Shown here: positions 1 to 11,527 of the stretch, piece by piece
Numbering within the stretch: position 1 is the stretch's first letter
Layout: every line of letters starts with the position of its first letter
Assembly: GCA_016192135.1 (NCBI GenBank)
Contig: JACPUR010000031.1
Coordinates: forward strand, 1 to 50,009
Length of the DNA: 50,009 bases
DNA from: Candidatus Tectomicrobia bacterium
Lineage (GTDB): Bacteria; UBA8248
Direction of reading: 5' to 3'
Made by a program: the position numbers and the translations under genes
Notes under the pieces: generated by a model
What the model was told of the DNA's origin: nothing
The model's input: the letters and a program-made list of their open reading frames with translations, nothing else
Database searches by the model: none

Positions 1-209
1 ATGCCTTCCTCCCCGAGCTTGCCCGCCCGGGAGAAGGCCGTCAGCTGCTGCTTGCAGTAGGGTCACCAGTGGCCCCGGTAGAAGAGCACCACCCCCCAGC
101 CGCCCTTGAGGTCGCCGGGGAGGGTGATCTTCCCCCCGCCCACTTTCGCGACCTCCAGGGCCGGAAAGGCGTCCCCCGAGTCCAGCATCCGGTCCGTCAT
201 TCTCGGCAT
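1..209 (-). CDS. Peroxiredoxin-like selenoprotein, N-terminal part (cut by window edge)
   Basis: Read on the minus strand from ATG at 209, the frame gives MPRMTDRMLDSGDAFPALEV, then a beta-strand (GVVLFYRGHW), an in-frame TGA at 63-65 (codon 49), then PYCKQQLTAFSRAG; 69 codons are visible before the edge. AhpC/TSA-type peroxiredoxin-like proteins carry an FYRGHWCPYC-x2-QL motif here, so the TGA replaces the first catalytic Cys and leaves a U49-P-Y-C52 pair. I infer selenocysteine. The family reduces peroxides or acts as a thiol oxidoreductase. The start is supported by GGAGG eight bases upstream; ATG at 200 is an alternative. A stem-loop lies downstream of the TGA. A nonsense mutation or sequencing error is possible, but the reading frame stays family-like on both sides. 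Confidence 0.8.
3..38 (-). promoter_or_regulatory. Candidate bacterial SECIS hairpin for the peroxiredoxin-like gene
   Basis: Downstream of the TGA at 63-65 the minus strand folds into a stem: GCCTTC (38-33) pairs with GAAGGC, TCCC with GGGA and GGGC with GCTC, with two single-G bulges. The apical loop is GGGCAA (24-19). The loop starts about 38 bases after the UGA, just beyond the range usual for bacterial SECIS elements (roughly 16-37). A smaller CCC/GGG stem with loop GGGC would put it at 34. A loop that begins with G is typical of these elements. The stem lies inside the coding sequence, as in other bacterial selenoprotein genes. Folding was done by eye. Confidence 0.55.
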
Positions 210-352
210 CGGATATTCCTCCAGAGACAACATTCAGGACGTTCTGGTCCGAACCTGACTCGCATAAGGCCAACGACATATGCATGGAAAACACCGTGGT
301 CGCAACAAATTGGCTGCGGAAAAATTCCCTCTCCTTTGCGGCAATTCTCTTT

Positions 353-10948: not shown

Positions 10949-11527
10949 GTGGCTGTACCCATATTCCTTAAAACCATGGCCATCGGAATGATTCTTCTGG
11001 CGTGCTTTCTGGGTCCGCGCCCCGCCGGGGCGGCGGAGCCGCGCTTCCATGTCCTCCAAGCCGTTCCACCCGGAGCGCCGCCGCTCGCCGATTTTAGCTT
11101 CCCCGATCTCAATGGCAAGCCCCGTCGGCTGAGCGAATGGCGGGGGAAGGTGGTGTTGCTCGCCTTTTTCGCCACTTGGTGCCCCCTCTGCAACGAGGAA
11201 ATACCGCGCCTCAGCACGCTACAGAAAAAATACGGGGGGCGCGACTTCACCGTCCTCGCGGTGTCGATCGACCAGACCCGGGCCGCTCCGGTGGAGAAAT
11301 GGGCCCGGGAGCGGAAGCTGAGTTTTCCAATTCTGCATGATGAAAGCTTCTCTTCCCGCACGGCCCACAATGTCCGCTTTGTCCCGACGCTCTATCTCCT
11401 GGACCGGGACATGCGGCTTGTCGCGCGCGCCGTTGGGTTCGTGGATTGGCAAGGGAAAGACGCGACGGGCCTCATCGAGCGCCTTTTCGCCCTTCCCCGT
11501 GCGGCTCGAATGGAGGATTCCCCCTAA
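10949..11527 (+). CDS. TlpA/ResA-like thioredoxin, periplasmic
   Basis: 192 aa with an N-terminal signal or anchor (ending GPRPAGAAEP) and an AhpC/TSA-Redoxin domain of the TlpA type. The active site is WCPLC (FFATWCPLCNEEIPRL), the cis-Pro segment is FVPTLYLLDRD, and the strand VVLLAFFATW precedes the active site. Such proteins reduce apocytochrome c or other periplasmic thiols. The five-heme cytochrome two genes downstream makes a cytochrome-maturation role attractive, but this is inference. GTG 10949 is preceded by AAGGGA; ATG 10976 is an alternative that would shorten the signal. Confidence 0.85.
   Translation: MAVPIFLKTMAIGMILLACFLGPRPAGAAEPRFHVLQAVPPGAPPLADFSFPDLNGKPRRLSEWRGKVVLLAFFATWCPLCNEEIPRLSTLQKKYGGRDFTVLAVSIDQTRAAPVEKWARERKLSFPILHDESFSSRTAHNVRFVPTLYLLDRDMRLVARAVGFVDWQGKDATGLIERLFALPRAARMEDSP

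Follow-up and report, generated by a model that had tools for sequence, protein, structure and literature searches.

Selenocysteine (Sec, U) has already been recorded in proteins with a peroxiredoxin-like (Prx-like) domain. The accessible parts of two papers catalogue Prx-like thiol:disulfide oxidoreductase selenoproteins of the Pfam family PF00578, with both U-x-x-C and U-x-x-U motifs (PMC13188914, PMC9312934). As far as the accessible part of its description extends, Prx-like 1 of the Global Ocean Sampling selenoproteome combines pfam00578 with U-x-x-C in 225 metagenomic sequences (PMC2398784), the same domain and motif as in the gene described here, which we call gene A. The Sec-containing peroxiredoxin PrxU also has the PF00578 fold in common with gene A. 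According to the accessible material on PrxU, its Sec occupies the peroxidatic position (T-x-x-U), whereas Sec in gene A stands three residues earlier and the peroxidatic residue is Cys52. The catalogued Prx-like thiol:disulfide oxidoreductases share with gene A and its paralogue, gene B, the same domain, the motif and the occurrence of both U-x-x-C and U-x-x-U. They differ from the present case in that here the paralogues A (U-x-x-C) and B (U-x-x-U or U-x-x-C) adjoin throughout one uncultured phylum. The gene family with selenocysteine is already known, and the A-B pair is a new member of the catalogued Prx-like selenoproteins. The main text of PMC13188914 mentions neither Tectomicrobia nor the word stem Nitrospin, and our literature search retrieved no paper joining a selenoprotein with either name; two papers combine selenocysteine with Tectomicrobia. 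The phylum-wide tandem pair was not found in the literature searched and may be described elsewhere.

The window, by which we mean the whole 50,009-nucleotide stretch of DNA that was analysed, is contig C31 of a 3.92-Mb genome (G000) in 41 contigs that is 96.8% complete. At its left edge lie, very probably, the opening 69 codons of a gene for a selenoprotein, a small Prx-like thiol:disulfide oxidoreductase of the thioredoxin fold, with Sec presumably inserted by means of SelB, selC and a downstream hairpin. This 5' part of gene A (1-209, minus strand), a PF00578 Prx-like sequence with U-x-x-C, is cut by the contig edge. The minus-strand frame from 209 to 1 reads MPRMTDRMLDSGDAFPALEVAKVGGGKITLPGDLKGGWGVVLFYRGHW-TGA-PYCKQQLTAFSRAGKLGEEG; this single TGA is its only stop before the edge. 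It starts with ATG at 207-209, preceded by a GGAGGA ribosome-binding site at 217-222 (both on the minus strand), in agreement with the good ribosome site noted in the original prediction. The TGA at 63-65 (minus strand) is codon 49, the first position of the CxxC motif, and we read it as selenocysteine; the second position is the TGC of Cys52 (54-56, minus strand). The active-site stretch of the product is RGHWUPYC, which bears out the predicted U-x-x-C pair. Complete relatives have about 165 residues. The expectation that standard gene calling would lose the gene also held, as it is absent from a list of open reading frames with a 60-amino-acid minimum; ordinary-code gene calling truncates each gene of the A-B set at codon 48.

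The 69-residue fragment in the window matches Pfam AhpC-TSA (PF00578) with 40.8 bits (cut-off 26) and Pfam Redoxin with 27.0 bits (cut-off 26.6). Gene B on another contig of the same genome, C5, scores 64.5 bits against PF00578 (cut-off 26), 13.8 bits against the NCBIfam model of PrxU (cut-off 270) and 20.0 bits against the SelL-related NF040769, below its curated cut-off of 120. Profile alignments with solved peroxiredoxins set WCPYC against FTPVC, so that U49 aligns with the Thr of the PxxxTxxC motif and Cys52 with the peroxidatic Cys. RGHWUPYC departs from PxxxTxxC in having Arg for Pro and Sec for Thr, and the Cys is kept. The alignments lead us to reject Sec at the peroxidatic Cys, where the original prediction had placed it. 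Judged by its sequence, the gene A product is a Prx-like protein of the CxxC type and not a canonical peroxiredoxin. Its Sec takes the place of the first Cys of thioredoxin-like proteins, and a Cys is kept at the peroxidatic place. Homologues with Cys place that residue opposite U49. Those of the same family in Actinoallomurus and Ktedonobacter are 46% and 40% identical to gene B of C5 across almost the full length, and these and others have CPYC or CPFC where gene B has UPYC. An AlphaFold model of gene A from the relative L051 (pLDDT 91) has a helix at 50-61 that begins directly after position 49. Its best PDB matches are peroxiredoxins with a query TM of about 0.7-0.83, in keeping with a peroxiredoxin fold, and the ResA-type structure 4nmu is also listed. 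The protein is expected to be a thiol:disulfide oxidoreductase, or a peroxidase resolving via a Sec-Cys bond within the motif, two functions between which fold and motif do not discriminate.

We compared 18 genomes of the phylum, including G000, among them the named relatives Candidatus Tectomicrobia (L048, L049) and Nitrospinae metagenome-assembled genomes (MAGs; L050, L051). Genes A and B matched in 17 of the 18, the genome without a match (G013) being 70% complete, and they adjoin on one contig in all 16 relatives with matches. Codon 49 is TGA in all 17 copies of gene A that cover it (15 relatives together with C31 and C8 of G000); the copy in G001 begins past this codon and was left out of the count. 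Because TGA stands at the same codon in every such copy of the phylum, a chance TGA is excluded, and the same observation supports the predicted reading as Sec. We are almost certain that the TGA of this interrupted gene encodes selenocysteine, in a small redox protein. Gene B encodes about 172 residues, mostly with the motif YRSHWUPYU or YRSHWUPYC, and has TGA at the first motif position in 17/17 genes. The second position is TGA in eight of them (G000, G001, G002, G010, G012, G015, G016, G017) and a Cys codon in the other nine (G003 to G009, G011, G014), and the two states vary even inside the genus g6. The presence of U-x-x-U in eight genomes and U-x-x-C in nine therefore indicates that TGA and Cys codons exchange at this position. 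The gene B of G009 carries a frameshift further on. The neighbourhoods of the pair in relatives gave no clear pathway; near it lie frames that we take to be HflK/HflC-like in some relatives and MsrB-like at L168:6165-6563 and L169:3227-3622.

Outside the phylum, five of the 297 genomes in the phylum of G018 match at E 1e-20, and four of these five matches have one TGA. The motif is UPFC in L184 and L185, and our search patterns did not find it in L186 and L187. L188 lacks a TGA, its match spanning the C-terminal part only. A scan of genome contigs gave Cys at 76 of 80 loci, but this ratio is no measure of the frequency of Sec beyond the clade, as one of the two search patterns demands Cys at that site.

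The interruption of gene A at the window edge is likely to have arisen in assembly. Positions 1-141 of the window match the first 141 bases of contig C8 of G000 exactly. Another exact 141-base overlap is shared by C5, at its right end, and C28, at its left end, and encodes the C-terminus of gene A. An exact overlap of 141 bases would mark a branch of the assembly graph inside a repeated gene, and k = 141 is a MEGAHIT setting. Exact overlaps of one set length are typical of branch points in k-mer assemblies, so the genome probably carries gene A twice, in near-identical copies with a collapsed middle that is absent from the contigs. L049, a relative of the same genus, has the genes of C31, A, B and the genes of C5 in succession, and for this reason the window copy probably heads an A-B pair and may continue into the gene B of C5, an arrangement that the data suggest rather than prove. 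In the more distant L050, L051 and L166-L168, gene A is preceded by C8-like sequence and gene B is followed by C5-like sequence.

Such a position, at a contig edge within a collapsed repeat, could also be expected of a pseudogene or an assembly error, with the TGA as a genuine stop or a miscalled base and a dead or wrong frame downstream of it. The relatives refute this explanation, and we regard it as exceedingly unlikely: the copies that share the TGA come from mostly separate genomes, and in relatives the frame after it stays conserved as far as a normal C-terminus. Gene A of full-length relatives also lacks the additional stops past the edge that the original prediction had named as evidence against itself. 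The numerous TGA codons within the PF00578 genes of G000 might seem to suggest that TGA has become a sense codon throughout the genome, as in genetic codes 4 or 25. Those codons stand at redox motifs, and ordinary TGA stops speak against reassignment so strongly that its probability is close to nil: TGA terminates the LivM-, LivG- and LivF-like genes in the window and ends 17 of 29 mechanically chosen long open reading frames there, some of which are possibly spurious.

It is also very improbable that an unusual tRNA decodes the TGA as Cys or another amino acid, even though the exchange between TGA and Cys codons cannot by itself separate Sec from Cys and selD was not found above the cut-off in the G000 MAG. 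Against such a tRNA stand the standard selC, selB and selA of G000 and the conserved hairpin after the gene B UGA. The genome has selC with 74.8 bits (cut-off 47), selB with 389 bits and, 0.9 kb from selB on C15, selA with 540 bits. An absence of selB and selC, which had been put forward as grounds for rejecting the Sec reading, is thus not what we observed, and of the four genes proposed for a check only selD was not recovered. Of the 18 genomes of the phylum, 14 have a selD match above the cut-off, and each of these selD genes (among them L172-L179) itself contains one in-frame TGA, which likewise argues against an unusual tRNA. The best selD match in G000 (83.5 bits) was rejected as a protein that we take from its sequence to be ThiL-like, beside a presumably ThiE-like frame. 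The absence of selD from G000 presumably reflects a gap in the MAG. The selC gene (L020, G000:C28:5467-5559) lies on the same contig as one gene A end and a deiodinase-like gene, all within about 5.6 kb.

Sec candidates in G000 extend beyond the A-B pair. Ten of its 24 PF00578 matches have an in-frame TGA, each at a redox motif (L009-L018, on contigs C31, C8, C5, C3, C40, C28, C35, C30, C1 and C41). Two proteins with GAITUPP, on C28 and C41, are presumably deiodinase-like. L010 (G000:C40:110635-110967, minus strand) encodes a TlpA-like thioredoxin-fold protein of another subfamily with two TGA codons (TTUPVUGRQ), a double-Sec candidate. The window itself also has a TlpA-like PF00578 protein with WCPLC and without TGA (11084-11422, plus strand; L008, L019).

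Downstream of the TGA in gene A, a candidate bacterial SECIS hairpin lies at 3-38 (minus strand), with the six-nucleotide loop GGGCAA at 19-24, 38 nt after the TGA. Folded as a 40-base piece it reaches -25.2 kcal/mol (z -4.3), with none of 200 shuffles as stable; for the whole 65 bases from the TGA, z is -2.0 and 8/200 shuffles are as stable. The published bacterial SECIS model, in the accessible part of its description, allows a spacing of 16-37 nt (PMC13188914). The window hairpin agrees with the model in loop, stem and energy, and its spacing is one nucleotide over this range. Among 16 distinct gene A sequences, the base stem GCCTTC/GAAGGC is paired in 99% of cells and the upper stem in 58%; the hairpin of G012 is weak. 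Covariation was not seen in these sequences, as one cell changed on both sides and 423 of 500 shuffles scored as high. The G-loop hairpin of the original prediction is accordingly retained as a candidate, stable alone but lacking covariation in gene A. A small 4-bp hairpin, CTGC-AAGCA-GCAG (45-57, minus strand), is conserved in gene A of relatives.

Sixteen of 17 distinct B genes keep, even at synonymous positions, the hairpin that follows the UGA, TTCTCCC-GGGC-GGGAGAA, with a 7-bp stem and the loop GGGC; in L134 one loop base differs (GGGT). The loop of this hairpin lies 34 nt from the first UGA and 25 nt from the second, both within 16-37 nt. In a scan that included G011, the hairpin was the six-codon window of lowest entropy, a value reached in 1 of 20000 column permutations; on a window chosen after the data had been seen, with the gene B of G011 excluded, the count was 0/100000. 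The hairpin is retained in G012, where the flanking codons look more AT-rich, and the gene B of G011, without the conserved hairpin sequence, could by eye form TTCGC-GCGG-GCGAA at nearly the same place. A smaller hairpin between the UGA and the large one has compensatory third-position changes in 10 cells, matched by none of 500 shuffles (13 distinct gene B stretches, G011 left out). The sliding control is not clean, as moving the hairpin by +3 still gives a covariation score of 0.162 against 0.182.

The Sec reading implies the following course of events. SelB and the Sec-tRNA (selC) would read the TGA at 63-65 as Sec, directed by the downstream hairpin, and the gene A product would carry its redox pair, Sec49-x-x-Cys52, where a helix begins. 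Judging from the family, Sec49 would react faster than Cys with an oxidised substrate, either a disulfide or a peroxide; a Sec-Cys bond would then form and be reduced by a thioredoxin-like partner. The host is an uncultured Tectomicrobia-type bacterium, in whose relatives the paralogous gene B comes next. More tentatively, and with somewhat more doubt than confidence, we propose that one hairpin of gene B serves two UGAs lying two sense codons apart and that A (U-x-x-C) and B (U-x-x-U) form a phylum-wide selenium relay in which a selenenylsulfide enzyme and a diselenide enzyme act together. The decoding of both UGAs by a single hairpin fits the sequences because genomes whose gene B has exchanged the second UGA for a Cys codon retain the same hairpin.

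In summary, the analysis adds a well-supported selenoprotein pair for an uncultured lineage of the Tectomicrobia type. Because gene B occurs naturally in U-x-x-U and U-x-x-C forms that share one hairpin, it offers a comparison for the decoding of two close UGAs, and its orthologues also allow the contribution of the second Sec to be compared.
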